Part shown: one piece after another, positions 10,660 through 33,548 of the stretch
How the letters are laid out: each line of letters starts with the position of its first letter
How positions within the stretch are numbered: the stretch's first letter is position 1
Assembly (NCBI RefSeq): GCF_000661915.1
Contig: NZ_CP007509.1
Coordinates: 1,178,001-1,242,000, forward strand
Direction: 5' to 3'
DNA: 64,000 bases
Origin: Stutzerimonas decontaminans
GTDB lineage: Bacteria; Pseudomonadota; Gammaproteobacteria; Pseudomonadales; Pseudomonadaceae
The notes under the pieces: model-generated
Told to the model about the DNA's origin: nothing
The model's database searches: none
What the model saw: only the letters and a program-made list of their open reading frames with translations
Program-made: the position numbers and the translations under genes

Positions 10660-11280
10660 TCAGGCGGTCTGGGGCTCGGCGATCTCGCAACCTTTGAGGA
10701 CCAGGCGGATGATGGTGTCGGCGGCCGCATCGTAGTCGGCGTCGTCGAGGCGTGTCTTGCCGGTGACAGTGCTGATCTGCCAGTCGAAATCGGCATAGGT
10801 CTGGGTTGCCGCCCAGATGCTGAACAGCAGGTGATTGGCGTCGACATCTGCCATCAGGCCGTCATCGATCCAGCGCTGGATGCAGGCGATGTTGTGCGCC
10901 GCTTGTGCATTGAGCTGCGCAGTGCGTTCCGGGGATAGGTGCGGGGCGCCGTGCATGATCTCGTTGGCGAACACCTTGGAGGCGCAGGCGTGGTCGCGGG
11001 ATATCCTGATCTTGGTGCGGATGTAGGCACGCAGCACCTCGGCCGGATGCCCGGGCTGGTTGAACGGGGCTGAGGCGGCGAGCAACGGCTCGACAATGCT
11101 CTCCAGCACCTCGCGGTAGAGGTTTTCTTTGGACTTGAAGTAGTAGTAGACGTTGGGCTTCGGCAGCCCGGCGCGGGCGGCGATGTCGCTGGTTTTGCTC
11201 GCGGCGAAGCCTTTCTCGGCGAATTCCTCGCTGGCGGCTTTGAGAATCAGCTCTTTGTTGCGCTCACGGATACTGGACAT
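10660..11280 (-). CDS. TetR-family regulator, RutR-like
   Basis: A 206-aa regulator with an N-terminal TetR helix-turn-helix (about residues 8-55: TSDIAARAGLPKPNVYYYF) and a C-terminal ligand domain resembling E. coli RutR (segments SRDHACASKVFANEIMHGAPHL and LLFSIWAATQTYADF). RutR senses uracil/thymine and also controls purine genes. The start at 11280 was chosen over an upstream in-frame codon because it begins at the typical MSSIRERNKE helix. No pyrimidine genes lie nearby; the neighbours are purine uptake genes. RutR-like 16-bp palindromes occur at three purine promoters in the window, so this is the best candidate for their repressor. Confidence 0.85.
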   Translation of the reverse strand: MSSIRERNKELILKAASEEFAEKGFAASKTSDIAARAGLPKPNVYYYFKSKENLYREVLESIVEPLLAASAPFNQPGHPAEVLRAYIRTKIRISRDHACASKVFANEIMHGAPHLSPERTAQLNAQAAHNIACIQRWIDDGLMADVDANHLLFSIWAATQTYADFDWQISTVTGKTRLDDADYDAAADTIIRLVLKGCEIAEPQTA

Positions 11281-11404
11281 GGGGGCCTTTCGCTGGCTGC
11301 CGGCGATACGGACAAGCGCCCGCATGCTAGCACCCTGTTCGCGAGCCCCTCAACCGAACGCTGGCAGAGAAGCGAAGGGGCGCAATGCCCCTTCGCAGCA
11401 GCGC

Positions 11405-12319: not shown

Positions 12320-13846
12320 TCAGAGAGACCGATCGGGACATGGTGTCGCAGGCGTCGCATTTCTCGCCGAGTAGTCGGGGATGTTCACCGACAGCGTATT
12401 GGTGCCGACGGCATCCTCGATCAGCTCCTCGGGGTCGAATACATCGACTTCGCTCGGTTCGCGCGGCAGGAACAGGTTGAGCAGGATGGCGCTGAATGCA
12501 CCGATGGTTATCGGCGAGCCGAAGATGTTCTTCAATACCTCGGGCATTGCACTCAGCGCCTCTGGAACGCCCGCGACACCTAGTCCGAGGCCCAGGGAAA
12601 TCGACACGATCAGCATGTTGCGCCGATGCAGGCCGGCTTCGGCGAGAATCTTGATTCCGGCGATGGCCACGGTGCCGAACATGATCAGTGTGGCGCCGCC
12701 GAGCACCGGCTTGGGCATCAGCTGCAACACGCCGCCGACGAAGGGGAACAGGCCCAGCAGCACCAGGATGCCCGCGATGTAGTAGCCGACGTAGCGGCTA
12801 GCGACGCCAGTGAGCTGGATCACGCCGTTGTTCTGGCTGAAGGTGGTCATCGGCAGGCTGTTGAATACCGCGGCGACCGCTGAGCTGCAGCCATCGGCGA
12901 GAATCCCCGATTTGATCCGCCGCAGGTACACCGGCCCGCGCACCGGCTGGCGCGAGATCATCGAATTGGCGGTAAGGTCGCCGGCGGTCTCCAGCGGTGT
13001 GATCAGGAAGATCACCGCGATCGGGATAAAGGCCATCCAGTCGAATGCAAAGCCGAAGCGGAACGGTTGCGGCACGCTCACCAGCGGTAGCTCGCCCAGT
13101 TCGGCGAAATCGACCTTGCCCATGGACCAGGCGACCACGTAGCCCGCGGTAAGCGCGACGATGACCGCCGACAGTCGCAGGATTGGCCAGGGGAAACGGT
13201 TGAGGACGACGATGATGCCGATTACCAGGCCGGCCAGCGCCAGGTTGGGCAGGGCACCGAGGTCATCGGCGCCGTAGCCGCCGGCGATGTCGGTCATCGC
13301 CACCTTGATCAGCGACAGCCCCATCAGGCAGATGATGGTGCCGGTCACCACCGGCGTGATCACCCGACGCAGCTTGTTGATGCACTGGCTGAAGGCGATC
13401 TCGACGAAGGCGGCGCAGAAACTCACGCCAAACAGCGTGGCGAGAATCTCCTCAGGGCTGCCGCCGCGGCCCTTGACGATGAAGCCGGCGCTGAGGATGG
13501 CACTGAGAAAGCCGAAGCTGGTGCCCTGCAGGCACAACAGTCCGGAGCCGATAGGCCCGAAGCGTCTGGCCTGGACGAAGGTGCCGAGGCCGGAGACGAA
13601 CAGCGCCATGCTGACGAGGTAGGGAACGTATTGATCGAGGCCGAGCACGCTGCCGACGATCAGGGTTGGCGTGATGATGCCGACGAAGCTGGCCAGCACG
13701 TGCTGCAAGGCGGCGAAGGTCGCGGGTAGCGGGCCGGGGCGGTCATCAAGCTGATAGATGAGGTCCTGGTTCGCCTGCGGAGCGGTGCCGCTCCTGTTTT
13801 CGGTTGCGGTCATTGTTAAGCCTGCCATTTGTTGTTTTACGGTCAT
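12320..13846 (-). CDS. XanP-like xanthine:H+ symporter (NCS2 / NAT family)
   Basis: A cytoplasmic-membrane carrier of about 508 aa with 12-14 predicted membrane segments. It resembles E. coli XanP along its length: ELIYRLEDRP-like start (DLIYQLDDRP), QHVLASFVGIITPTLI, and the NAT signature QNNGVIQLTGVASRYVG. A substrate of xanthine (possibly urate) is inferred from this similarity and the neighbourhood. The start is uncertain: Met codons at 13846, 13828 and 13813 are possible, and a GTG at 13864 is less likely. Two GntR-type palindromes lie upstream, one within the promoter spacer. Confidence 0.87.
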   Translation of the reverse strand: MTVKQQMAGLTMTATENRSGTAPQANQDLIYQLDDRPGPLPATFAALQHVLASFVGIITPTLIVGSVLGLDQYVPYLVSMALFVSGLGTFVQARRFGPIGSGLLCLQGTSFGFLSAILSAGFIVKGRGGSPEEILATLFGVSFCAAFVEIAFSQCINKLRRVITPVVTGTIICLMGLSLIKVAMTDIAGGYGADDLGALPNLALAGLVIGIIVVLNRFPWPILRLSAVIVALTAGYVVAWSMGKVDFAELGELPLVSVPQPFRFGFAFDWMAFIPIAVIFLITPLETAGDLTANSMISRQPVRGPVYLRRIKSGILADGCSSAVAAVFNSLPMTTFSQNNGVIQLTGVASRYVGYYIAGILVLLGLFPFVGGVLQLMPKPVLGGATLIMFGTVAIAGIKILAEAGLHRRNMLIVSISLGLGLGVAGVPEALSAMPEVLKNIFGSPITIGAFSAILLNLFLPREPSEVDVFDPEELIEDAVGTNTLSVNIPDYSARNATPATPCPDRSL

Positions 13847-13916
13847 GGGCTTGCGAGGCTTCACGGCACCTCTATCGCTGTCCGTCGAAAGCTGTTCGAT
13901 CGGTCAGGACGCCTGG

Positions 13917-20381: not shown

Positions 20382-20411
20382 TTGTATACAAATTGAATGG
20401 CGCTTTGTAAA
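20382..20411 (-). promoter_or_regulatory. puuE promoter with overlapping TTGTATACAA operator
   Basis: On the minus strand TTTACA (20406-20411) and TATACA (20383-20388), 17 bp apart, form a -35/-10 pair. The palindrome TTGTATACAA (20382-20391) covers the -10, so a bound repressor would block RNA polymerase. It matches the GT-N2-AC core expected for FadR-type GntR proteins. Confidence 0.65.
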
Positions 20412-20518: not shown

Positions 20519-20528
20519 CTGTATACAA
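20519..20528. promoter_or_regulatory. CTGTATACAA operator upstream of uraH
   Basis: Second copy of the GntR-type palindrome in the puuE/uraH divergent region, 82 bp before the uraH start. Its centre is 137 bp from the site at the puuE promoter. No clear promoter hexamers were assigned for uraH. Confidence 0.55.
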
Positions 20529-22187: not shown

Positions 22188-23534
22188 TCAGAGAAACGCG
22201 AACTTGGCGATGAAGATCACGCACAACACATACAGGCTGATCGATACCTTGTCGCGCTGGCCAGTCAACAGCTTGAGCGTCGCGTAGGTCAAGAAGCCCA
22301 GGGCGATACCGTTGGCGATGGAAAAGGTCAACGGCATCATCACCACGGTGACGATGGCCGGGATGGTGTCGGTGTGGTCCTTCCAGTCGATATTGGCCAG
22401 GCCGCTCATCATCAGCATCGCCACGTAGATCAGCGCGCCGGCGGTGGCATAGGCGGGAATCATGCCGGCCAGTGGGGCGAAGAACATGGCAATCAGGAAC
22501 AGCACGCCGACGGTGACTGCGGTCAATCCGGTGCGGCCGCCGGCGGCGACGCCCGCGGCGCTTTCCACGTAGCTGGTGACTGGCGGGCAACCGACGAAGG
22601 CGCCGACCACGCTGGAGCTGCTGTCGGCCTTCAGCGCGCGGGAGAGGTTCTCGATCTTGCCGTCCTCGTTCACCAGATTCGCCCTGTGGGCGACGCCCAT
22701 CAGGGTGCCGGCGGTGTCGAACATGTTCACGAAGAGGAAGGCGAGGATCACGCTGACCATCGCCACGTTGAGCGCGCCGGCGATATCCATGGCCAGCCAG
22801 GTCGGCGCCAGGCTCGGCGGCATCGACACCAGGCCGTTGTACTCGACCAGACCAAGCGCCCAGCCGATGGCGGTGACCACCAGCATGCTGACCAGGATCG
22901 CACCGAACACGTTGCGGTGGCTGAGCACGGCGATCATCAGGAAGCACACCGCGGCCAGCAGCGCCGAAGGTTCGGCGAGTGAGCCCATGGTCAGCAGTGT
23001 GGCGGGGCTGGCAACGACGATACCGGCGGTCTTCAGGCCGATCAAACCGAGAAACAGGCCAACGCCGGCGCCCATGGCGAAGCGCAGGCTCATGGGGATG
23101 CTGTTCAGCAGCCATTCGCGGATGCGCGACAGGCTCATGATCATGAACAGCACGCCGGAGATGAATACCGCGCCGAGCGCGATCTCCCAGCTGTAGCCCA
23201 TCTCGCCGACCACCGTGTAGGTGAAGAAAGCGTTGAGGCCCATGCCTGGCGCCAGGCCCACCGGCCAGTTGGCGTACAGGCCCATCAGCAGGCAGCCGAG
23301 CGCCGCGCCGATGCAGGTGGCGACGAACGCGGCGCCGTGATCGATGCCGGCGTCGGCCATGATGTTCGGGTTGACGAAGATGATGTAGGCCATGGTGACG
23401 AAGGTCGTCAGGCCGGCGAGCAGTTCGGTACGGATGCTGGTGCGGTGTTCGCTGAGCTTGAACAGGCGGTCCAGCCAAACGGGGGCGGTGCGCTGCAAGG
23501 GTGCAGCCTGGGGCTTGCGCTTGATGCTTTCCAC
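22188..23534 (-). CDS. NCS2 family purine permease, AzgA-like (adenine/guanine/hypoxanthine)
   Basis: A 448-aa membrane carrier of the AzgA-like branch of NCS2. Landmarks are FVTMAYIIFVNPNIMADAG, APGMGLNAFFTYTVV, FDTAGTLMGVA and CPPVTSYVESAAGVAAGGRTG. E. coli GhxP/GhxQ and AdeP/AdeQ belong to this branch; guanine/hypoxanthine transport is a reasonable inference but not certain. The GTG at 23534 was chosen since GAGGAA lies 7 bp upstream; an in-frame GTG at 23567 has no such site. Its promoter carries both operator types found in this window. Confidence 0.9.
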   Translation of the reverse strand: MESIKRKPQAAPLQRTAPVWLDRLFKLSEHRTSIRTELLAGLTTFVTMAYIIFVNPNIMADAGIDHGAAFVATCIGAALGCLLMGLYANWPVGLAPGMGLNAFFTYTVVGEMGYSWEIALGAVFISGVLFMIMSLSRIREWLLNSIPMSLRFAMGAGVGLFLGLIGLKTAGIVVASPATLLTMGSLAEPSALLAAVCFLMIAVLSHRNVFGAILVSMLVVTAIGWALGLVEYNGLVSMPPSLAPTWLAMDIAGALNVAMVSVILAFLFVNMFDTAGTLMGVAHRANLVNEDGKIENLSRALKADSSSSVVGAFVGCPPVTSYVESAAGVAAGGRTGLTAVTVGVLFLIAMFFAPLAGMIPAYATAGALIYVAMLMMSGLANIDWKDHTDTIPAIVTVVMMPLTFSIANGIALGFLTYATLKLLTGQRDKVSISLYVLCVIFIAKFAFL

Positions 23535-23622
23535 TGGGCGTTCCTCATCGTTCTTGTTGTCGATCACCCGGAGCGCTAGAACTCCCGAGGGGCGGGTGAT
23601 GGTGGGCCATCTGTGTCGGTAG

Positions 23623-23638
23623 TTGACCGAAAGGTCAG
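23623..23638. promoter_or_regulatory. RutR-like palindrome TTGACCGAAAGGTCAG at the permease promoter
   Basis: A 16-bp dyad (TTGACC and GGTCAG half-sites, 4-bp spacer) just downstream of the predicted permease start of transcription, where a bound TetR protein would block elongation. Its complement differs from the xdhA site at 31025-31040 by a single base. The RutR consensus (from memory) is TTGACCA-N2-TGGTCAA. Confidence 0.65.
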
Positions 23639-23651
23639 AAAGGCTGTCTGG

Positions 23652-23679
23652 ATTATGCTTTTGTATACAGGAATTGCAA
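23652..23679 (-). promoter_or_regulatory. AzgA-like permease promoter with TTGTATACAG operator in the spacer
   Basis: On the minus strand TTGCAA (23674-23679) and CATAAT (23652-23657), 16 bp apart, fit -35/-10. The palindrome TTGTATACAG (23661-23670) fills the spacer, the same architecture as at xanP. AAACAATAAAT follows at 23678-23688 and is also found next to the xanP site (13944-13954). Confidence 0.6.
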
Positions 23680-23761
23680 ACAATAAATGGGCGGTGTTGC
23701 TCGATGTGCTTGGATTAGATGAGTCAGCTGCTGCAGCCAGGCGGGACGGGGTAGGAGCTGA

Positions 23762-23771
23762 TTGTGCACAA
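23762..23771. promoter_or_regulatory. TTGTGCACAA palindrome upstream of the GntR gene
   Basis: Perfect 10-bp palindrome 102 bp before the gntR start and identical to the one upstream of xanP (13962-13971). It is a candidate autoregulatory site for the GntR protein. Promoter hexamers for gntR were not clear. Confidence 0.55.
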
Positions 23772-23873
23772 AATATGTGGCGTTTCAGGGTATTTATTTG
23801 TCCAGCGAACTGCCAGTAAGGGCGTGAACCCAGTAAAGTTCGGCCTTGCCGACACCTCATTTGCGAGCCATCG

Positions 23874-24620
23874 ATGAACGAACAGTTGCAGCCCCTGAAG
23901 AAGCCGACCAAGACCGGCAAGACTCGCACCGGGACGCAGGACGATATCGTTTATGCGCACATCTTCGATGCCATCCTCGAACAGCGCCTTGCTCCGGGGA
24001 CCAAGCTCAGTGAAGAGGCGTTAGGCGAGATATTCGGCGTCAGCCGCACCATCATCCGCCGTGCGCTCTCGAGGCTGGCGCATGAAGGCGTGGTGCTGCT
24101 GCGGCCCAATCGCGGGGCGGTGGTGGCCAGTCCGAGCGTCGAGGAGGCGCGGCAGATTTTCTTCGCCCGCCGGCTGGTGGAAAAGGCCATAACCGAACTG
24201 GCCGTGCAGCACGCCAGCGAGGCGCAACTCGCCGAATTGCGGCAGATGGTGACCGATGAGCGCGATTGCTTCGACCGTGGCGATCGCGGAGCTGGCATTC
24301 GCCTCTCCGGCGAATTTCACCTCAAGCTCGCCGAGGCGGCGAAGAACGCACCGCTGGTGAGCTTCCAGCGCAGCCTTGTTTCGCAGACCTCGCTGATCAT
24401 TGCCCAGTACGAAAGCGGCAATCGCTCGCACTGCTCGTACGACGAACACAACGAGCTGATCGGCGCCATCGCTGCCCGCGACAGCGACAAGGCGGTGCGC
24501 CTGATGATGCACCACATGGACCATATCGACAGCAAGCTCAATCTCGAGGAAGACAGTGCCTCGGGTGATCTGCATGCGGTCTTCGCGAACATCGTCGCGA
24601 AGAAAAGAACCCGGGCGTAG
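23874..24620 (+). CDS. GntR-family (FadR/FCD) regulator, probable purine catabolism regulator
   Basis: A 248-aa regulator with a basic N-terminal tail (residues 1-25), a winged helix-turn-helix (about 28-95, with LSEEALGEIFGVSRTIIRRAL) and an FCD effector domain (about 100-235) containing the metal/ligand histidines typical of the subfamily (SGEFHLKLAEAA, EHNELIGAI, MMHHMDHI). It is divergent from the AzgA-like permease. Its stop codon TAG lies inside the head of a REP hairpin. Candidate operators of the form TTGTRYACAA lie in its own promoter and in the xanP, puuE, uraH and permease promoters. Confidence 0.92.
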   Translation: MNEQLQPLKKPTKTGKTRTGTQDDIVYAHIFDAILEQRLAPGTKLSEEALGEIFGVSRTIIRRALSRLAHEGVVLLRPNRGAVVASPSVEEARQIFFARRLVEKAITELAVQHASEAQLAELRQMVTDERDCFDRGDRGAGIRLSGEFHLKLAEAAKNAPLVSFQRSLVSQTSLIIAQYESGNRSHCSYDEHNELIGAIAARDSDKAVRLMMHHMDHIDSKLNLEEDSASGDLHAVFANIVAKKRTRA

Positions 24621-24724
24621 GGTGGATGGCTGAAGCCATCCACGCAGCTTCGGTGGTCCGTCCGAGTCGCAAGCCCGTCTGTGCGGCCTGTGTGGAAAAC
24701 CGCTTTGCGGGTTTTCCACGCTAC
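24617..24724. repeat. Inverted pair of GTAG-type REP hairpins between gntR and guaD
   Basis: The left element (24617-24645, GTAGGGTGGATGGC with its complementary arm) reads on the plus strand and overlaps the gntR stop codon. The right element has perfect 9-bp arms (24692-24700 and 24711-24719) ending in GCTAC, so it reads on the minus strand. This is the same family as at 2.8 kb and 27.1 kb. It separates two convergent genes and may act as a bidirectional transcript end. Confidence 0.75.
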
Positions 24725-24750
24725 GCACCTCCTCTTCGCGAAGCGCGGCT

Positions 24751-26055
24751 TCAACCTTTCCGGTGCACCGACACCCCGGCGGCGTAGGTTTCCTTCACCG
24801 CGCGGTCATCGCCGAGGATCATCAGGGCGAAGAGCTTTTCCTGCAGCGTCGTGGCCTGGCTGAGGCGATAGTCGATCAGCGGCGTCGCCTTGTAGTCGAG
24901 CACCACGAAGTCGGCCTCCTTGCCCGGCTGCAGGTTGCCGATCCGGTCGTCCAGATACAGCGCTCGTGCGCCGCCGAGCGTGGCAAGGTAGAGCGCTTTG
25001 AAGGCATCGAGTTTCTGGCCCTGCAGCTGCAGCACCTTGTACGCCTCGTTGAGGCTGGCGAGCTGCGAGAAGCTGGTACCGCCGCCGACGTCGGTGCCTA
25101 GGCCGACACGCACGCCGAAACCTTCCACCTTAGCCAGATCGAACAGGCCGCTGCCGAGGAACAGATTGGAGGTGGGGCAGAACGAGACCGCCGAGCCGGT
25201 CTCACCGAGGCGCCTGCATTCTTCGTCACACAGGTGCACGCCGTGCGCGAATACCGAGCGTGGGCCGATCAGGCCGTGGTGGTCGTAGACGTCCAGATAG
25301 CCCTTGCGCTCGGGGAACAGCTCCTTGACCCACTCGACCTCCTGCTTGTTCTCGGAGATGTGGGTGTGCATGTACAGGTCGGGGAATTCGGCGAACAGCT
25401 TGCCGGCCAGGGTGAGCTGCTCCGGCGTGCTGGTCGGGGCGAAACGCGGGGTGACGGCGTAGTGCAGACGGCCCTTGCCGTGCCAGCGCTCGATCAGCTC
25501 GCGGCTGTCGGCGTAGCCGGACTCGGCGGTGTCGGTGAGGAACTCCGGGGCGTTGCGGTCCATCAGTACCTTGCCGGCGATCATCCGCAGATTGCGCTTC
25601 TCGCAGGCTTCAAAGAAGGCGTCCACCGACTGCTTGTGCACCGTGCCGAACACCAGCGCGGTGGTGGTGCCGTTGCGCAGCAGTTCGCCGAGAAACAGCT
25701 CGGCCTGCTCGCGGGCATGGGCCATGTCGCTGAAACGGCCCTCGTTGGGGAAGGTGTAGGTTTCCAGCCAGTCCAGTAGCTGCGTGCCGTAGGAGCCGAT
25801 GACGCCGACCTGCGGGTAGTGGATATGGGTGTCGATGAACCCAGGAGTGATCAGCGCGTCCGGGTATTCGATCACTTCCGTGCCCGCCGCCAGGGTCGGC
25901 AGCAGCTCGGCGGCGTGGCCGACGCGCGCGACCCTGCCGTCCTCGACGACCAGCAGGCCGTCCTCGAAGTATTCATGGGATTGCTCGATGCCCACGTCCC
26001 GCGGGTCGGCGAGGCAATGAAGCAGGGCGGCACGGTAGGCTTTGGCTTGGGACAT
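24751..26055 (-). CDS. guaD: Guanine deaminase
   Basis: Deaminates guanine to xanthine. The 434-aa amidohydrolase has metal-binding His77 and His79 in PGFIDTHIHYPQ, the family signature, HTHISENKQEV further on, and GLGTDVGGGTSFS with the catalytic Asp. The start at 26055 (MSQAKAYRAALLHCLADP) is the usual guanine deaminase start. It follows xdhC by 123 bp on the same strand, with a hairpin between. Confidence 0.96.
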   Translation of the reverse strand: MSQAKAYRAALLHCLADPRDVGIEQSHEYFEDGLLVVEDGRVARVGHAAELLPTLAAGTEVIEYPDALITPGFIDTHIHYPQVGVIGSYGTQLLDWLETYTFPNEGRFSDMAHAREQAELFLGELLRNGTTTALVFGTVHKQSVDAFFEACEKRNLRMIAGKVLMDRNAPEFLTDTAESGYADSRELIERWHGKGRLHYAVTPRFAPTSTPEQLTLAGKLFAEFPDLYMHTHISENKQEVEWVKELFPERKGYLDVYDHHGLIGPRSVFAHGVHLCDEECRRLGETGSAVSFCPTSNLFLGSGLFDLAKVEGFGVRVGLGTDVGGGTSFSQLASLNEAYKVLQLQGQKLDAFKALYLATLGGARALYLDDRIGNLQPGKEADFVVLDYKATPLIDYRLSQATTLQEKLFALMILGDDRAVKETYAAGVSVHRKG

Positions 26056-26103
26056 GGTGACTCTCGAATCGTTGTAATGAGTGCGTTGCGTTGTGGAAGG
26101 CCC

Positions 26104-26154
26104 GCCCTCGGGGCGAAGCGGTTGGCGGCCTGTGGCCCACTTCGCCGCGAGGGC
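26104..26154. repeat. Inverted repeat in the xdhC-guaD gap
   Basis: Arms 26104-26118 and 26140-26154 are 15 nt with one mismatch (GCCCTCGGGGCGAAG and its near-complement). No U-run follows, so it is more likely a transcript-stabilising or processing hairpin than a terminator. Confidence 0.5.
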
Positions 26155-26178
26155 GCGCCTCACACAGGGTTGGCCCGA

Positions 26179-27039
26179 TCAGTTGGCCCGGGAGCGGCGC
26201 GAGGCAGGCACCAGCATCGGTACCGGCTTTTCACCGTCCTCGGCGTTCTCCCCACCCTTTTCTCCGAAATGCGCGTTGTAGGTGGCGATCACCTCGCCGG
26301 CGATGGACACGGCGATCTCCACCGGCAGCTTGCCCTTCACCTCGGCGATGCCCATGGGGCAGCGCATGCGCTGCACGGTCTCCGGCTGGAAGCCGCGGTC
26401 CCGCAGACGGTGTTCGAACCTGGCGCGTTTGCTCTTCGAGCCGATCAGCCCGTAGTAGGTGAAATCGTTGCGCGAAAGGATCGCGGCGGTCAGTTCCAGG
26501 TCGAGCTGATGATTGTGGGTCATGACGATGAAGTAGCTGCCGGCGGGCATGTTATCCACTTCCTCGACCACATCGTCGTTGACCACCTTTTCCACGCCGC
26601 GCGGAATCTCGGCGGGAAATTCGTTATCGCGCGAATCGATCCAGCGCACCTTGCACGGCAGGCTGGCCAGCAGCGGCACCAGCGCGCGCCCGACATGCCC
26701 GGCACCGAACACGGCGATATGCGCCTGCGGCTGCCCCATGGGCTCGAACAGCAGCACCGTAGCGCCACCGCAGCACTGGCCGAGGCTGGCGCCGAGGGAG
26801 AAGCGCTCGAGGCGGGTGTCACGGCTGCGCTTTTCCAGCATTTCACGGGCGATCTGCTGGGCCTTGTACTCCAGGTGGCCGCCGCCGATGGTGTCGTACA
26901 GGCGCTCACGGCTGACCACCATCTTCGAGCCGGCATTGCGCGGCGTGGAGCCGCGCTCCTCGATGATGGTCACCAGCACGCAGGGTTCGCCTTGTTGTTG
27001 CAGGTCGGCGAGTGCTTCGATCCAGGCCGTGTTGCTCAT
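26179..27039 (-). CDS. xdhC: Xanthine dehydrogenase accessory protein XdhC
   Basis: Binds and sulfurates the molybdenum cofactor and delivers it to XdhB; it is not part of the mature enzyme. The 286-aa protein has the N-terminal XdhC segment (VTIIEERGSTPRNAGSKMVV) with CGGATVLLFEP, followed by a Rossmann-like domain starting HIAVFGAGHVGRALVPLL. The ATG at 27039 gives MSNTAWIEALADLQQ. It is the third gene of xdhA-xdhB-xdhC. Confidence 0.95.
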   Translation of the reverse strand: MSNTAWIEALADLQQQGEPCVLVTIIEERGSTPRNAGSKMVVSRERLYDTIGGGHLEYKAQQIAREMLEKRSRDTRLERFSLGASLGQCCGGATVLLFEPMGQPQAHIAVFGAGHVGRALVPLLASLPCKVRWIDSRDNEFPAEIPRGVEKVVNDDVVEEVDNMPAGSYFIVMTHNHQLDLELTAAILSRNDFTYYGLIGSKSKRARFEHRLRDRGFQPETVQRMRCPMGIAEVKGKLPVEIAVSIAGEVIATYNAHFGEKGGENAEDGEKPVPMLVPASRRSRAN

Positions 27040-27058
27040 GGTTCTGTCCTTCGTATGG

Positions 27059-27135
27059 CCCGGTGGCGAGTGCAAAGCGTCGCCACCGGGACGTTCGTGT
27101 TGCGCCAACGGTGGACAAGCACAGCGTTGTCCACC
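27059..27135. repeat. Two hairpins in the xdhB-xdhC gap, the second REP-like
   Basis: The first has perfect 11-bp arms (27059-27069 and 27080-27090) with a 10-nt loop. The second (27110-27118 and 27127-27135, GGTGGACAA / TTGTCCACC) matches the GTGG-stem REP family of this genome. Both would form within the xdh transcript. Confidence 0.65.
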
Positions 27136-27140
27136 CTGCG

Positions 27141-29537
27141 TCAGGCCGGGGTGGTCTCCGTTGTCGCAGACTTGCTCGCCGCCTGCTTCAACCTGCGCAT
27201 CTGTTCCACGCCCCAGAGCACGCGCTCGGGGGTTGCCGGGGCATCGATCTGCGGCTGCGCCCGGTAGTCGGCCAGGCTGGCGACGGCATCCTTGATCGCG
27301 CACCAGACCGAGATGCCGAGCATGAATGGCGGCTCGCCCACGGCCTTGGAGTGGAACACGGTGTCTTCGGGGTTCTTGCGGTTCTCCACCAGCTTGACCC
27401 GCAGATCCAGCGGCATGTCCGCTACCGCCGGGATCTTGTAGCTGGCCGGGCCGTTGGTCATCAGCTTGCCCTTGTCGTTCCAGACCAGCTCTTCCATGGT
27501 CAGCCAGCCCAGACCCTGGACGAAGCCGCCTTCGACCTGTCCGATATCGATGGCCGGGTTCAGCGAGGCGCCGACGTCATGCAGGATGTCGCTGCGCAGC
27601 ATCTTGTATTCGCCGGTCAGGGTATCGACGATCACTTCCGAACAGGCCGCGCCGTAGGCGAAGTAGTAGAACGGCCGTCCGCGCGCCTGGCTGCGGTCGT
27701 AGTAGATCTTCGGAGTGCGGTAAAAACCGGTGGACGACAGTGAGACCTGGCCGAAATAGGCCTGCTGGATCAGCTCATCGAAGCTGATGTACTGGTCGCG
27801 CAGGCGCACCTGGCCGTTCTTGAACTCGATGTCTTCCTCGAAGATCTGCCACTTGCGCGCGGCGAACTCCACCAGCCGTTGCTTGATGGTCTGCGCCGCA
27901 TTCTGCGCCGCCTTGCCGTTGAGGTCGGCACCGCTGGAGGCTGCCGTCGGCGAGGTGTTGGGCACCTTGTCGGTGTTGGTGGCTGTGATCTGGATGCGCT
28001 CGATATCCACCTGGAACACCTCGGCCACCACCTGCGCAACCTTGGTATTGAGGCCCTGGCCCATCTCGGTGCCACCGTGGTTCAGGTGGATGCTGCCGTC
28101 GGTGTAGACGTGCACCAGCGCGCCGGCCTGGTTGAGGAAGCTGGCGGTGAAGCTGATACCGAACTTCACCGGCGTGAGCGCCAGGCCTTTCTTCAGGATC
28201 GGGTTCGCGGCATTGAACGCGCGGATTTCCTCGCGGCGGCGTGCGTACTCGCTACTAGCCTCAAGCTCGGCGGTCATCTCCTCGAGCATGTTGTGCTCGA
28301 CGGTCTGGTAGTAGTGGGTGACGTTGCGCTCGGTCTTGCCGTAGTAGTTGCGCTTGCGCACGTCGAGCGGGTCCCTGCCCAGTTCGCGCGCCACGGCGTC
28401 CATGATCTCCTCGATGGCCACCATGCCCTGCGGGCCGCCGAAGCCGCGGTAGGCGGTGTTCGACGCCAGGTTGGTCTTGCAGCGATGGCCGTTGATGGTG
28501 GCGTCGCCCAGGTAGTAGGCGTTGTCGGAGTGGAACATGGCGCGGTCGACGATGGAGCCGGAGAGGTCCGGCGAGTAGCCACAGTTGCCGGCCAGGTCGA
28601 TCTCGATACCGTGCAGCAGGCCGTCATCGTCGAAGCCGACGTCGTATTCGACATAGAACGGGTGGCGTTTGCCGGTCATGGTCATGTCTTCCATGCGCGG
28701 CAGGCGCATCTTGGTCGGCCGGCCGGTGAGGTGCGCGATCACCGCGCACAGGCACGCAGGTCCCGCGGCCTGCGTTTCCTTGCCGCCGAAGCCGCCGCCC
28801 ATGCGACGCATGTCGATGACGATCTTGTTCATCGAGACGCCGAGCACTTCGGCGACCAGCTTCTGCACCTCGGTGGGGTTCTGCGTCGAGGTGTAGACGA
28901 TCATGCCGCCGTCTTCGGTGGGCATCACCGAGGACACCTGGGTTTCCAAATAGAAGTGCTCCTGCCCGCCGATGTGCAGCGAGCCCTGCAGCCGACGCGG
29001 CGCGCTGGCCAGGGCCGTCGCCGAGTCACCACGCTGGTGGGTGTGGCTGTCGAGCACGAAGTGCTTCTTGTGCAGCGCATCGACCACATCGAGCACTGGC
29101 TCCAGGTCTTCGTATTCGATGATCGCGGCCATGGCCGCCTTGCGTGCGGTTTCCAGACTGTCGGCGGCGACGGCGATCACCGGCTGGCCGATGTACTCGA
29201 CCTTGCCGTCGGCGAGCAGTGGATCGCCGGGCAATACGGCGCCGATATCCAACTGGCCCGGCACGTCCTTCGCCGTGATGGCGATGGCCACGCCCGGAAT
29301 CTGGTAGCAGGGTGCGGTGTCGATGCGGACGATGCGGGCGTGGGCGCGCTCGCTCATGCGCGCATAGATATGCAGCTGGTTGGGGAACTCCAGGCGGTCG
29401 TCGACGTATACCGCCTCGCCGGAGACGTGCTTGGGCGCGCTGTCGTGCTTGACGCTGCGACCGACCCCGGTGACCAGGTCCTGGGTGAACAGCGCCGCGA
29501 TTTCTTCCTGAGTGCGGGTGGTTACGTGGTTAGACAT
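27141..29537 (-). CDS. xdhB: Xanthine dehydrogenase, molybdenum-binding large subunit
   Basis: Catalytic subunit that hydroxylates hypoxanthine and xanthine to urate at the molybdopterin centre. The 798-aa length is typical. Visible motifs: GGGFGGKETQ, NTAYRGFGGPQGM, TEMGQGLNTK, SSGADLNGKAAQNA and the C-terminal KAVGEPPFMLG with the active-site Glu. Its start overlaps the xdhA stop by 8 bp. Confidence 0.97.
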   Translation of the reverse strand: MSNHVTTRTQEEIAALFTQDLVTGVGRSVKHDSAPKHVSGEAVYVDDRLEFPNQLHIYARMSERAHARIVRIDTAPCYQIPGVAIAITAKDVPGQLDIGAVLPGDPLLADGKVEYIGQPVIAVAADSLETARKAAMAAIIEYEDLEPVLDVVDALHKKHFVLDSHTHQRGDSATALASAPRRLQGSLHIGGQEHFYLETQVSSVMPTEDGGMIVYTSTQNPTEVQKLVAEVLGVSMNKIVIDMRRMGGGFGGKETQAAGPACLCAVIAHLTGRPTKMRLPRMEDMTMTGKRHPFYVEYDVGFDDDGLLHGIEIDLAGNCGYSPDLSGSIVDRAMFHSDNAYYLGDATINGHRCKTNLASNTAYRGFGGPQGMVAIEEIMDAVARELGRDPLDVRKRNYYGKTERNVTHYYQTVEHNMLEEMTAELEASSEYARRREEIRAFNAANPILKKGLALTPVKFGISFTASFLNQAGALVHVYTDGSIHLNHGGTEMGQGLNTKVAQVVAEVFQVDIERIQITATNTDKVPNTSPTAASSGADLNGKAAQNAAQTIKQRLVEFAARKWQIFEEDIEFKNGQVRLRDQYISFDELIQQAYFGQVSLSSTGFYRTPKIYYDRSQARGRPFYYFAYGAACSEVIVDTLTGEYKMLRSDILHDVGASLNPAIDIGQVEGGFVQGLGWLTMEELVWNDKGKLMTNGPASYKIPAVADMPLDLRVKLVENRKNPEDTVFHSKAVGEPPFMLGISVWCAIKDAVASLADYRAQPQIDAPATPERVLWGVEQMRRLKQAASKSATTETTPA

Positions 29538-30978
29538 AAGCGGTCACCCTCGTCTCGGTCTTCGGTGCATGTTGTTCGAGAAAGCATTTGCGCAGCAGGT
29601 TCTGTGCGACCAGCAGGCGATATTCGCGGCTGGCGCGGAAGTCGGTCAGCGGCGTGAAGTCCTCGGCCAGTGCATCGCAGGCCGCCTCCACGGTTTGCTG
29701 GTTCCACGGCGCGCCGTTCAGCGTCGCCTCGCAGGCCGCGGCACGCTTGGGGATCGCCGCCATGCCGCCGAAGGCAACGCGGGCATCGGCGACCACACCG
29801 TCGGTGATCTGCAGGTCAAACGCGGCGCAGACAGCGGAGATGTCGTCGTCCAGACGCTTGGAAACCTTGTAGGCGCGGAACAGGCGATCCGGTGTGGCGC
29901 GCGGTACGATGATCTTCTCGATGAACTCGCCAGGCTGGCGCGCGGTGACCTTGTAGTCGATGAAGTAATCCTCGAGCGGCAGGGTGCGGCTGCTGGCGCC
30001 CTTGCGCAGGACAACTTCGGCACCCAGGGCGATCAGCAGCGGCGGCGAGTCGCCGATCGGCGAGGCGTTGCCGATGTTGCCACCCAGCGTGCCCTGGTTG
30101 CGGATCTGCAGCGACGCGAAGCGCTGCAGCAGCTCGCCGAAATCCGGGTACTCGGCGGCCAGCGCGGCGTAGCAGTCGGTCAGCGGTGCGGCTGCACCGA
30201 TCTCGATGCTGCTGTCCGTTACCTCGACCTTTTTCATCTCGGCGATATGGCCGACGTAGATCATTACCGGCAGTTCGCGGTGGAACTGGGTCACTTCCAG
30301 GGCCAAGTCAGTGCCGCCGGCCAGCAGCCGTGCGTCCGGGTTGGCGCTGTAGATGTCGGCCAGATCGTCCACCGTCAGCGGGGAGAGGCAGCGCTTGTCG
30401 CCGCTGTTCAGCTCGGCGGTCGCACGCGGCTCGATGGCTTTCAGCTGGGCAATGGTTTCCGCTTCGCGGGCGTCGAACTGGTCCGGCTGCTTACCGCAGC
30501 AGGCCTGTTCGGCGGCTTCAAGAATGGGGCGGTAGCCGGTGCAGCGGCAGAGGTTGCCGGCCAGCGCTTCGTGAGTCTGGTGCGGGTCGTATTCGGTCAC
30601 CGCGCCGGCATTCTTCTGCAGGGCGAACAGGCTCATGACGAATCCCGGGGTGCAGAAGCCGCACTGTGAGCCGTGGCAGTCGACCATGGCCTGCTGGACG
30701 CTATGCAGCCGGCCCTGGTCCTTGAGGTCTTCGACGCTGATCAGCTGCTTGCCGTGCAGCGCGGAGACGAAGGTCAGGCAGGAGTTGAGGGTGCGATAGC
30801 GCAGGCGGTCATCCACCAGCTCGCCGACCACCACGGTACAGGCGCCACAGTCACCGGAGGCGCAGCCCTCCTTGGTTCCGGTCTTGCCACGATGCTCGCG
30901 CAGGTACTGCAGCACCGTGGTGTTGGGATCGAGTGCGCGCTCGCTGCGCAATTCTCGATTGAGAAGAAACTGGATCAA
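29530..30978 (-). CDS. xdhA: Xanthine dehydrogenase small subunit (2Fe-2S and FAD)
   Basis: Carries electrons from the molybdenum subunit to NAD+. The 482-aa protein has a plant-type 2Fe-2S cluster (Cys39, 44, 47, 67), a second cluster domain (Cys106, 109, 144, 146 in CGFC and CRC), and a FAD-binding domain from about residue 195 with GTLGGNIGNASPIGD. It is first in xdhA-xdhB-xdhC, and two RutR-like palindromes lie in its promoter. Confidence 0.97.
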   Translation of the reverse strand: MIQFLLNRELRSERALDPNTTVLQYLREHRGKTGTKEGCASGDCGACTVVVGELVDDRLRYRTLNSCLTFVSALHGKQLISVEDLKDQGRLHSVQQAMVDCHGSQCGFCTPGFVMSLFALQKNAGAVTEYDPHQTHEALAGNLCRCTGYRPILEAAEQACCGKQPDQFDAREAETIAQLKAIEPRATAELNSGDKRCLSPLTVDDLADIYSANPDARLLAGGTDLALEVTQFHRELPVMIYVGHIAEMKKVEVTDSSIEIGAAAPLTDCYAALAAEYPDFGELLQRFASLQIRNQGTLGGNIGNASPIGDSPPLLIALGAEVVLRKGASSRTLPLEDYFIDYKVTARQPGEFIEKIIVPRATPDRLFRAYKVSKRLDDDISAVCAAFDLQITDGVVADARVAFGGMAAIPKRAAACEATLNGAPWNQQTVEAACDALAEDFTPLTDFRASREYRLLVAQNLLRKCFLEQHAPKTETRVTAYV

Positions 30979-31011
30979 GGCGATGCCTCCGCTGTTGTTG
31001 TTCTGACGCGC

Positions 31012-31063
31012 AAGCTAGCGCTATCTGACTTTTCGGTCAACTAATTCCTGACTCAAAAGTCAA
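31012..31063 (-). promoter_or_regulatory. xdhA promoter with two tandem RutR-like palindromes
   Basis: CTGACTTTTCGGTCAA (31025-31040) and CTGACTCAAAAGTCAA (31048-31063) share the pattern CTGAC-N6-GTCAA and start 23 bp apart. On the minus strand TTGACC (31035-31040) and TAGCTT (31012-31017), 17 bp apart, fit a -35/-10 pair, with the first operator overlapping the -35. This suggests simple repression by exclusion of RNA polymerase. Confidence 0.65.
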
Positions 31064-31139
31064 TGCGGCAGACGCGCGCAGATAGGGCGAGGCGTATCGA
31101 TGCGCTCGCCCATGTTTTCATACTGCAATTAAAGCCCGC

Positions 31140-32114
31140 TCAGGCCGTTTCGGCCTCGCCCTGCCGTCGGTAGGCGTAGGTCTCGGCGAAGCGCGAGAGC
31201 ATGTAGCGGCTGCACGTCGTGCTCGGGTATTTCGGTGGGTTGTCTTCGCTGTAGCAGCCGGGCAGGCAGGCGATCTCGGTGTCCGGGTGCGGCTCGGCGA
31301 AGAAGGGCATCGAATAGCGATCCACGCCCAGCGGGCTGATCACGCGATGGGGCGTCGACTTGTAACGGTCGTTGCTCCAGCGCGCCATCATGTCGCCGAT
31401 GTTGACCACGTAGGTGCCTTCGATCGGCGGCGCGTCGATCCACTCGCCTTTGACGTTTTGCACCTGCAGGCCGCCGGCCTGGTCCTGATAGAGCAGGGTG
31501 ACGCAGCCGTAGTCAGTGTGCGCGCCGGCACCCTGTTGCTCGGCGCTGGTGGCGGTCTGCCGGGGCGGGTAGTGGATCATGCGGAACACGCTGATGGGCT
31601 CGACGAAGCGCTTGTCGAAGAAGTCCCGCTCGATGCCCAAGGCCAGCGCAATCGCACGCAGCAGGGTGCAGGCGAGATCCTGCATGTCGCGGTAGTGGCC
31701 TTCCATCAGCTCGGTCCAGCCTTCCAGCTGTGCCGGGTGTCGGTTGGGCCCGCGCAGCGGTTTGCCGGCCAGCACTTCCGGGTGGTCGGTAGGCATATGG
31801 AAACCCATGTCGAAGGTTTCCTTGAGATCGCACGGCTGGCTCGGGTCCAGTTGCTCGGTGGCGACGGCACCGTAGCCGCGGTGATGCTGGCTCTTGGTGA
31901 TGTCGATCTCAAGCTTCTGTTCGGCCGGCAGTGCGAAGAAACGGCGGGCATGTTCGGTCAGCGTAGCGATGCGCTCGGCGCTGATCGGATGACCCTTGAT
32001 ATAGAAGAAGCCCCACTCGCGGCAGGCGCGGTCGATCGCCTCGGCAACGGCCAAGTGGCCCTTTTCGTCGGCGTCGTAGAGGGGGGAAATGTCGATGATG
32101 GGCAGTGTATTCAT
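31140..32114 (-). CDS. 2-oxoglutarate/Fe(II)-dependent oxygenase of the isopenicillin N synthase-like family
   Basis: A 324-aa cytosolic oxygenase. The N-terminal DIOX_N region begins LPIIDISPLY. The core double-stranded beta-helix has iron ligands His199 and Asp201 (HTDYG) and His256 (PHRVIS), and the 2-oxoglutarate-binding Arg266 and Ser268 (RYS). The substrate is unknown. It sits between the BMP binding protein and xdhA on the same strand, inside a purine catabolic block, so a purine or purine-derived substrate is an inference. It is not related by eye to the TauD-type xanthine dioxygenase XanA of fungi. Confidence 0.88.
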   Translation of the reverse strand: MNTLPIIDISPLYDADEKGHLAVAEAIDRACREWGFFYIKGHPISAERIATLTEHARRFFALPAEQKLEIDITKSQHHRGYGAVATEQLDPSQPCDLKETFDMGFHMPTDHPEVLAGKPLRGPNRHPAQLEGWTELMEGHYRDMQDLACTLLRAIALALGIERDFFDKRFVEPISVFRMIHYPPRQTATSAEQQGAGAHTDYGCVTLLYQDQAGGLQVQNVKGEWIDAPPIEGTYVVNIGDMMARWSNDRYKSTPHRVISPLGVDRYSMPFFAEPHPDTEIACLPGCYSEDNPPKYPSTTCSRYMLSRFAETYAYRRQGEAETA

Positions 32115-32223
32115 GGCTGACTCCGGTACGGCGCCGCCGGTCTTCTCGTACCGGCGGCTTTCGAGGGCAATGCCCCCTGCGTGCGGTTCGCCAGGTGGCG
32201 GGACGGCACGCAGACTCCGCAGT

Positions 32224-32244
32224 GCGCCGGCACCAGGCCGGCGC
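32224..32244 (-). repeat. GC-rich hairpin just after the BMP gene
   Basis: Seven-bp arms GCGCCGG / CCGGCGC (32224-32230 and 32238-32244) with a second stem (32133-32141 and 32150-32158) further on. There is no U-run. Such hairpins after a substrate-binding-protein gene commonly protect its mRNA and lower expression of the next gene. Confidence 0.5.
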
Positions 32245-32253
32245 GGGTGACGC

Positions 32254-33345
32254 TTACTTCGGCATTTCGGCCTTGACGCCTTCGACGTAGTAATTCATCG
32301 AGGCGAGGTCTTTGATGCTGGCGGTTTCGCCCTCGGCGATGCGCACTTCGCCAGCCTGGTCCTTGATCGGGCCGGTGAACGGATGGAACTCGCCGCTCTT
32401 GATGCTGGCGATGATCGCTTCGGCTTCGGTCTTCACATCGGCCGGCACCAGATCGCTGATCGGCAGGCTGATGCTCTCCTGGGCCAGACCGCCCCAGAAG
32501 TCCTCGGATTTCCAGGTGCCGGCCATCACGGCTTCGGCCGACTTGGTGTAGTGCGGGCCCCAGTCGTTGACGATGGAGGTCAGCACGGCCTTGGGCCCGA
32601 AGTGCTGCATGTCCGAGGCGTAACCGACCGAGTAGATGCCACGACGCTCGGCGGCCTGGATCGGCGCCGGGCTGTCGGTGTGCTGGAAGATCACGTCGAC
32701 GCCCTGGTCGATCAGCGCGTTGGCGGCATCGGCTTCCTTGCCCGGATCGAACCAGGTGTTGACCCACACCACTTTGATCTCGGTGCCGGGGTTGTACTTG
32801 TCCAGCGCCAGCTGGATGGAGTTGATGTCGCGGATCACTTCCGGAATCGGGAAGGAGGCGATGTAGCCGACCTTCTTGGTCTTGGTCATCTTCGCCGCGA
32901 GGAAACCGCCGACGTAGCGGCCCTCATAGGAACGGGTCAGGTAGGTGCCGACGTTCTTCGCCTGCTTGTAACCGGTGGCGTGCTCGAAGGTGACCTTGGG
33001 AAACTGCTTGGCGACCTTCAGCGTGGGGTTCATGTAGCCGAAGGAGGTGGTGAAGATCAGGTCGTAGTCGCTCTTGGCCATGTTGCGGATGACCCGCTCG
33101 GCATCGGCGCCTTCCGGCACGTTCTCGACGAAGCTGGTCTTTACCTTGTCGCCGAGCTTCTCTTCCATGTACTTGCGGCCCTGCTCGTGCTGGTAGGTCC
33201 AGCCGTGGTCGCCGATCGGGCCGATATAGACGAAGCCGACTTTCAACGGATCGGCAGCCGACGCCGCTGCGGTCGTCAGTGCGGCGCTGAAGCCGATCGC
33301 TGCGGCGAGTGTGCGCAGCAGGGTTTTCCGTGAGTTGTTCTGCAT
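32254..33345 (-). CDS. BMP-family ABC transporter substrate-binding protein (nucleoside/purine type)
   Basis: A 363-aa periplasmic binding protein of the basic membrane protein (BMP/PnrA-like) family with a signal peptide (residues 1 to about 31, cleavage near ASAAD). Landmarks: KVGFVYIGPIGDHGWTYQHE, FATTSFGYMN-like (FTTSFGYMNPTL), YEGRYVGGFLAAKM and DVIFQHTDSPAPIQAA. Nucleosides or purines are typical ligands. The usual ATPase and two permease genes are absent on both sides, so it is an orphan here. A RutR-like site lies in its promoter. The start at 33345 has AGGAG about 11 bp upstream. Confidence 0.9.
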   Translation of the reverse strand: MQNNSRKTLLRTLAAAIGFSAALTTAAASAADPLKVGFVYIGPIGDHGWTYQHEQGRKYMEEKLGDKVKTSFVENVPEGADAERVIRNMAKSDYDLIFTTSFGYMNPTLKVAKQFPKVTFEHATGYKQAKNVGTYLTRSYEGRYVGGFLAAKMTKTKKVGYIASFPIPEVIRDINSIQLALDKYNPGTEIKVVWVNTWFDPGKEADAANALIDQGVDVIFQHTDSPAPIQAAERRGIYSVGYASDMQHFGPKAVLTSIVNDWGPHYTKSAEAVMAGTWKSEDFWGGLAQESISLPISDLVPADVKTEAEAIIASIKSGEFHPFTGPIKDQAGEVRIAEGETASIKDLASMNYYVEGVKAEMPK

Positions 33346-33390
33346 GGCGGGTGACGCTCCTGTTTGTCTAGCTACAGAGCCTGTGTTGGC

Positions 33391-33427
33391 TGATAGCTGG
33401 TTAGCAAAAAGCTGACCAACTGGACAG
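33391..33427 (-). promoter_or_regulatory. BMP gene promoter with RutR-like palindrome
   Basis: CTGACCAACTGGACAG (33412-33427) matches the remembered RutR consensus TTGACCA-N2-TGGTCAA at 13 of 16 positions. On the minus strand TTGGTC (33414-33419) and CTATCA (33391-33396), 17 bp apart, fit -35/-10, with the -35 inside the operator as at xdhA. Confidence 0.55.
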
Positions 33428-33548
33428 ATACCTTGGTTGTGCCGGATTGCGGCCGCTTCGACTCGACGCCGGCGCCCGAGCGAGGCTTGCGCTGGTGCGC
33501 CAGTAATCCACGCCGCCCAGCTTTGGTGCAAGCCTCGATCATGATTGC

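Follow-up and report, generated by a model that had tools for sequence, protein, structure and literature searches.

RutR of Escherichia coli, the TetR-family regulator whose gene is linked to rutA and pyrimidine genes, contacts uracil through W77, W167 and Q171, through Q179 of the partner chain and, via water, through Y97, as described in the passages on its pocket in PMC10891134. In Pseudomonas aeruginosa, purine genes are repressed by UgmR (PA1520), which, according to the parts of PMC12694930 that deal with it, occupies sites in front of gcl and of the allantoin cluster and is relieved by uric acid, not by allantoin. In the same parts, allantoin is stated to induce gcl, probably by a route other than UgmR, and PA1504, a RutR-type TetR protein, is named as a candidate under study (PMC12694930). 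The locus considered here is a 64,000-nucleotide stretch (hereafter the window) of the 4.83-Mb genome of Stutzerimonas decontaminans (contig NZ_CP007509.1, positions 1,178,001 to 1,242,000), which comprises a purine catabolic cluster. In this cluster the motif YTGACYNNNNRGTCAR recurs in front of purine genes and, judged by its conservation, most likely constitutes a conserved 16-letter switch at purine genes of Pseudomonas-type bacteria that is read by a relative of RutR with a changed ligand pocket, encoded in the same cluster (hereafter the window TetR).

An original prediction had placed RutR-like operators at four sites of the window, and all four are present at the coordinates it gave (starting at 23623, 31025, 31048 and 33412). 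Its consensus, CTGAC-N6-GTCAA, holds in part: the site at azgA and the two at xdhA are exact copies of YTGACYNNNNRGTCAR, whereas the site at the BMP gene, the weakest of the four, reads CTGACCAACTGGACAG and deviates from YTGACYNNNNRGTCAR by one mismatch, with GGACA as its right half. Within the window, only these four sites match YTGACYNNNNRGTCAR with up to one mismatch.

At xdhA, two copies stand in tandem, with the -35 box inside the proximal one, as had likewise been noticed in the original prediction: TTGACC opens the proximal site, and a conserved -10-like element, TAxxTT, follows 17 bp on in 67 distinct promoters. Relatives for comparison came from 80 named loci that the GntR protein of the window had retrieved; xdhA was found in 69 of these and azgA in 40, and L020, where xdhA runs off the locus, was dropped. 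All 68 remaining xdhA promoters carry at least one exact site. When the promoter of the window is included (69 in total), the two sites lie 23 bp apart in 67 promoters and 22 bp apart in one, while locus L023 has a single site. The half-sites contain 1.99 bits (proximal) and 1.85 bits (distal) of information in the 67 distinct promoters, against 0.61 outside both sites, the promoter rows having been anchored on the motif, which favours the value of the proximal site. Both halves of the motif are kept across eight genera, with varying flanking letters. The motif is hence supported as a deeply conserved putative operator of purine genes.

Across the genome, with frequency judged on exact matches only, the 16-mer occurs four times, where the base composition of a 178-kb genome sample predicts 3.4 occurrences, and for looser patterns the backward control yields as many matches or more (18 versus 18, and 360 versus 497 for the control). 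By the letter of the original prediction, for which occurrence at chance frequency counted as refutation, the operator would have to be given up. Nevertheless, this frequency does not refute the operator, because three of the four exact copies sit in two purine promoters, those of azgA and xdhA, 7.4 kb apart, and because these copies are conserved; genome-wide chance frequency says little about a regulator whose few targets are local. The same count is what speaks for chance palindromes over ordinary -35 boxes (TTGAC), a reading of negligible probability that was rejected, given the conservation of both halves amid varying flanks and the scarcity of the reversed control pattern, which at up to one mismatch is found in 0 of 68 xdhA and 0 of 40 azgA promoters and in 2 of 23 xdhA promoters of a second set. 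The fourth exact copy (C1:841873-841888, L159:2874) is intergenic, between a PilJ-domain gene and a gene for a LuxR-type response regulator.

The occurrence of the site at further promoters was counted over distinct stretches from 80 plus 40 loci, allowing up to one mismatch and using the backward pattern as control. Upstream of azgA the site is present in 40 of 40 relatives (39 exact; control 0), at -56 to -83; a second type of box, TTGTRYACAA, lies upstream of the putative CATAAT -10 element and the operator just after this -10. The single inexact copy, CTGACCTTTCGATCAA in locus L027, is the only core mismatch among the 40; both xdhA sites of this locus are exact, and its draft genome (G021) is the sole one of 38 that lacks a tetR ortholog match. 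The site was moreover found upstream of an NCS1 permease gene (7/7; control 0), the BMP gene (3/3; 0), moaA2 (8/24; 0), puuE (5/36; 0), the Tsx gene (3/15; 2) and xdhC (2/26; 0). At pbuX, 11 of 18 distinct stretches carry a site with one mismatch (control 3/18), which is absent in the close relatives L005, L009 and L020; none of the pbuX, BMP, puuE and xdhC sites in relatives is exact. Upstream of tetR, which shares one divergent promoter with moaA2, 8 of 39 distinct regions carry a site, 6 of them an exact one (control 1), and a second tetR set (n = 40, genomes partly shared) yields 7 exact sites and 11 with up to one mismatch (control 3). No site was found upstream of guanine deaminase (71), xdhB (69) or SBP3 (25) genes. 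The gcl promoter carries the site in 12 of 25 relatives (control 2), and in genus g128 in 10 of 11 loci with gcl, seven of them exact, 43 to 44 bp upstream of a TTGTRYACAA box. In this genus the genes are ordered gcl-tetR-moaA2, which we take to be the order of PA1502-PA1504-PA1505.

The second box leads to another regulator of the cluster, a GntR/FCD protein unmentioned in the original prediction, which is taken as the UgmR counterpart and whose gene is flanked by two of the sites. The palindrome TTGTRYACAA precedes ugmR in 78 of 78, azgA in 40 of 40, pbuX in 17 of 18, puuE in 24 of 36 and gcl in 20 of 25 distinct stretches, ugmR and azgA sharing one intergenic region in part of the genomes. 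It is found at 0 of 68 xdhA, 0 of 39 tetR and 0 of 24 moaA2 promoters as well as at none in two other xdhA sets (0/40 and 0/18), and in another set of 40 stretches it stands beside the site upstream of tetR in two (L226, L227). Because the published UgmR targets, gcl and the allantoin cluster, carry the box, it is presumably bound by UgmR, an assignment made from these targets. UgmR is thus like the window TetR in being encoded in the same cluster and in regulating the same pathway, but belongs to a different family and, given this assignment, uses a different box. That UgmR should itself bind the 16-letter motif would accord with its published role as a repressor of purine genes (in the parts of PMC12694930 on UgmR), with the position of its gene next to the azgA site and with its occurrence in the same 107 genomes as the window TetR (see below). 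This reading is nonetheless very improbable and was rejected, in view of the separate conserved box, which fits the published targets and is missing from xdhA, and of all 12 g123 genomes, in which the xdhA site occurs although a UgmR ortholog (E ≤ 1e-90) is absent.

Which regulator accompanies the xdhA site was surveyed in 198 genomes of the family, with thresholds of E ≤ 1e-65 for orthologs of the window TetR, E ≤ 1e-90 for the GntR protein and E ≤ 1e-100 for xdhA. The TetR ortholog occurs in 107 genomes, the GntR (UgmR) ortholog in the same 107, and xdhA in 146. Each of the 107 TetR-bearing genomes has an xdhA site: 74 show the tandem pattern (up to two mismatches) within about 150 bp of xdhA, and in the other 33 one exact copy or more precedes xdhA, in most cases with a second site, sometimes mismatched, 22 or 24 bp away. 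The tandem pattern occurs in 77 genomes altogether; the other three (G349, G394 and G457) are devoid of the TetR ortholog, and in the two where xdhA was placed, G349 and G394, the match lies away from it. A tandem scan at the level of the order gave 10 matches in 293 genomes, seven of them exact and all within the family of the window, the three outside it having two mismatches and being taken as chance. Neither regulator accompanies xdhA in 39 genomes, 25 of which were examined; the remaining 14 are all g122. All 12 g123 genomes have one exact xdhA site and no ortholog of the window TetR or UgmR, whereas an exact site is found in 0 of 7 g126, 0 of 4 g132, 0 of 1 g131 and 0 of 1 g122 genomes examined, the g122 genome having two sites with one mismatch each at xdhA. 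Proteins of the RutR family in general (E ≤ 1e-20; 26 TetR-lacking genomes) are present in 12 of 12 g123 and 5 of 5 g122 genomes and in none of the nine of g126, g131 and g132, and none of these nine xdhA-bearing genomes without any RutR-family protein has the xdhA site. With g122 set aside, whose XdhA reaches only about half identity, the xdhA site therefore goes with the RutR family, occurring in genomes that have such a protein and missing from those that have none (Fisher 1.3e-13, indicative only, as kinship is ignored). Since the site persists in g123 without UgmR, the latter is cleared as a necessary partner, and as far as this survey goes any of the RutR-family paralogs may read the site.

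The genome of S. decontaminans encodes two further RutR-family proteins, C1:711002 and C1:1414590 (paralog 2). The former adjoins rutA, and sequences closely related to it share 54 to 60 percent identity with E. coli RutR, for which reasons it is taken as the true RutR; as this rutA-rutR pair is encoded at another place in the genome, the window TetR, within the purine cluster, represents a separate paralog. Conceivably, one of these two proteins binds the purine sites and ties purine breakdown to uracil, with the window TetR controlling something else, which appears unlikely. In its favour, the g123 genomes carry the xdhA site with only these two types of paralog, one of which can probably read it there, and the E. 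coli RutR sites at carA (TTGACCATTTGGTCCA) and between rutA and rutR (TGGACTAAACGGTCAA) share half-sites with the purine motif, each being one mismatch away. Moreover, the g123 genome G394, which lacks the window TetR, has an exact motif (L300:5221-5236) 39 bp upstream of an open reading frame for a concentrative nucleoside transporter near one for a pyrimidine nucleoside phosphorylase, and paralog 2 in the genome of the window is preceded, at 1.2-1.4 kb, by two one-mismatch sites (L302:571 and L302:738). A site like that of G394 occurs in G349 at L301:3769-3784. On the contrary, the RutR ortholog's own region carries TGGACCATTTGGTCTG, which has two mismatches to the motif and GGAC in place of TGAC; similar sites are found in 4 of 12 relatives' stretches (L280, L283, L284 and L285) and in none of the other eight. 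On so thin a data set, the RutR ortholog and the window TetR may prefer different outer letters, GGAC and TGAC. Directly upstream of paralog 2, no YTGAC site is found in this genome or in eight relatives, three of which share a different, imperfect CGGACCGCGAAGGCAT. In addition, the two-site form at xdhA goes with the TetR-bearing genomes and the single site with g123, and motif sites occur at tetR promoters.

The window TetR itself falls into the YcdC/RutR branch, with scores of 61.2 for TetR_N (gathering 24) and 196.1 for TetR_C_3, PF08362 (gathering 25), and its best match in the PDB is RutR (E 8.8e-40). It is like E. coli RutR in domain architecture, in a near-full-length alignment and in four of the five uracil contacts, but remains below the RutR equivalog cutoffs (TIGR03613, 174.8 < 368; NF011584, 156 < 230) and, unlike RutR with its linkage to rutA and pyrimidine genes, sits in a purine cluster. 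The two also differ at Trp77 and His172. The orthologs of the window TetR that were compared, 52 distinct sequences from 71 loci with identities down to 71 percent, all retain W167, Q171 and Q179, and 51 retain Y97. In contrast, W77 is replaced by Leu (44) or Ile (8), the window TetR having Leu81 at this place, and the neighbouring H172 by Thr throughout. On the other hand, W77 and H172 are both kept in 17 other RutR-family sequences, namely E. coli RutR, both paralogs and 14 from TetR-lacking genomes; Y97 is Phe in four of the 17. Because Trp77 is lost while the other four uracil contacts are kept, the ligand has probably changed, and we infer one that still presents an imide-like edge while requiring space at the former stacking position of W77. 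The matched stretches of six tetR orthologs (L100, L105, L110, L111, L120 and L122) contain one in-frame stop each, which may be the gene end.

It is thus likely, in our estimation, that the sites serve as operators for a TetR repressor of the RutR family, and most likely for the protein encoded at 10660-11325. The original prediction, in which this protein had become a local regulator of purine catabolism, is borne out as far as the conserved motif at purine genes, the match to E. coli RutR sites and the occurrence of the xdhA site with the RutR family rather than with UgmR are concerned; it is tempered by the two further paralogs that could read the site and by its presence in g123 without an ortholog of the window TetR. 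Several other observations weigh against the assignment besides these paralogs, the only RutR-type proteins of g123, and the genome-wide frequency given above. As the window TetR and UgmR occur in the same 107 genomes, their co-occurrence has no power to separate them. The tetR promoter of the window has no site, nor is an exact one found in 33 of 40 genomes; about half of the relatives' gcl promoters are without it, and that of the window shows none at up to two mismatches. The sites, their conservation, the promoter geometry and the pocket changes are observed in the sequences, whereas the binding protein, the repression and the ligand are predicted.

Under regulation by the window TetR, the ligand-free protein would bind YTGACYNNNNRGTCAR as a dimer. 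Two dimers 23 bp apart would occupy the xdhA promoter, the proximal one over the -35 box, and one dimer would sit just past the -10 at azgA. A product of the purine route with a uracil-like imide edge, such as allantoin, urate or xanthine, would then enter the pocket and release the protein, permitting transcription; allantoin is slightly favoured because gcl is allantoin-induced. UgmR would act separately via its TTGTRYACAA boxes, and azgA, pbuX and, in some genera, gcl would hence receive two inputs, whereas xdhA would be governed by the TetR operator only. A ligand-released repressor with steric block at the -35 of xdhA and just past the -10 of azgA is the most likely mode, although activation instead of repression is conceivable, as E. 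coli RutR, from a position far upstream, acts as an activator of carAB P1 according to the passage on this promoter in PMC6245113. Going further, it may tentatively be proposed, at rather less than even confidence, that a RutR paralog exchanged uracil for allantoin or another imide product of purine breakdown through loss of Trp77 while keeping its operator, that it forms with the urate-sensing UgmR a two-input gate over purine breakdown, and that it represents the missing UgmR-independent allantoin control of gcl in species like P. aeruginosa.

Gene calls in the window were based on profile and domain matches (Table 1). The purine catabolic cluster surrounding the sites comprises gcl, the RutR-like TetR gene and genes for a Tsx-like channel, PbuX, a urate oxidase-like protein (PF06181), ureidoglycolate lyase, allantoicase, the allantoinase PuuE, the AzgA-like permease, the GntR/FCD regulator and guanine deaminase, followed by xdhC, xdhB and xdhA and genes for a 2-oxoglutarate (2OG)-Fe(II) dioxygenase, the BMP substrate-binding protein and 8-oxoguanine deaminase. 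The dioxygenase, which has a DIOX_N domain, is encoded at 31140-32114, between xdhA and the BMP gene. No pyrimidine catabolic genes were seen among the scanned proteins, which extend to about 41.7 kb of the window with some open reading frames left out.

Table 1. Predicted regulatory elements and genes of the purine cluster (positions within the window)
Feature	Position	Strand	Basis or remark
Glyoxylate carboligase gene gcl	2916..4697	-	TIGR01504
RutR-like TetR, predicted operator reader	10660..11325	-	TetR_N and YcdC-like C-terminal domain
Xanthine permease PbuX	12320..13864	-	TIGR03173, 437.1 bits (cutoff 414.15)
Weak pbuX site CTGTTCGATCGGTCAG	13892..13907	-	Pattern match in the window, 2 mismatches
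UgmR-type box TTGTATACAA, near start of puuE operon	20382..20391		Pattern match
UgmR-type box CTGTATACAA, upstream of puuE	20519..20528		Pattern match, 1 mismatch
AzgA-like purine permease	22188..23567	-	PF00860 Xan_ur_permease; no NCBIfam family at 1e-3
Putative azgA operator CTGACCTTTCGGTCAA (minus strand)	23623..23638	-	Exact motif, just downstream of -10
Putative azgA -10 element CATAAT	23652..23657	-	Read off 11 promoters
UgmR-type box TTGTATACAG, azgA promoter	23661..23670		Exact TTGTRYACAA upstream of azgA in 40/40 distinct stretches
UgmR-type box TTGTGCACAA, upstream of ugmR	23762..23771		Pattern match
GntR/FCD regulator, taken as UgmR (PA1520) counterpart	23874..24620	+	Family and position; equivalence inferred
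xdhA, xanthine dehydrogenase small subunit	29530..30978	-	TIGR02963, 708.3 bits (cutoff 467)
xdhA -10 element TAGCTT	31012..31017	-	17 bp from -35; conserved letters at offsets 23, 24, 27, 28
Putative proximal xdhA operator TTGACCGAAAAGTCAG (minus strand)	31025..31040	-	Exact motif; first 6 bases are the -35 hexamer
xdhA -35 hexamer TTGACC, within proximal operator	31035..31040	-	Information content, 67 distinct promoters
Putative distal xdhA operator TTGACTTTTGAGTCAG (minus strand)	31048..31063	-	Exact motif, 23 bp upstream of proximal
BMP-type substrate-binding protein	32254..33345	-	PF02608 (match on longer open reading frame 32254-33684)
BMP-gene site	33412..33427	-	1 mismatch; asymmetric, with GGACA as one half; in 3/3 relatives a 1-mismatch site at -78 to -82

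The window TetR is probably the counterpart of P. aeruginosa PA1504, as judged only from synteny and domain content: like PA1504, its relatives sit between gcl and moaA2. PA1504 has been named in connection with gcl, whereas the motif described here suggests xdhA and azgA as principal targets; at the same time, the gcl site of g128 bears directly on the published question of PA1504 and the allantoin induction of gcl. Elsewhere, PA1504 is named among regulators assigned to motility in a report whose abstract speaks of ChIP-seq (chromatin immunoprecipitation sequencing; PMC13086498), an insertion mutant was used (PMC6546240) and the gene is listed in a table (PMC2774163); the passages on PA1504 in these three sources contain no purine targets. 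A literature search found no description of the motif at purine genes of Pseudomonadaceae, although the RegPrecise lists of RutR sites (PMC5343134) may hold some.

The present analysis thereby provides a predicted operator, a predicted regulon and a pocket change for a regulator that was named in a 2025 paper as a candidate for the allantoin induction of gcl. The altered pocket points to a so far unstudied sensor of a purine breakdown product. If this holds true, a pyrimidine sensor would have been turned into a sensor of the purine pathway, with one pocket residue as the obvious suspect.

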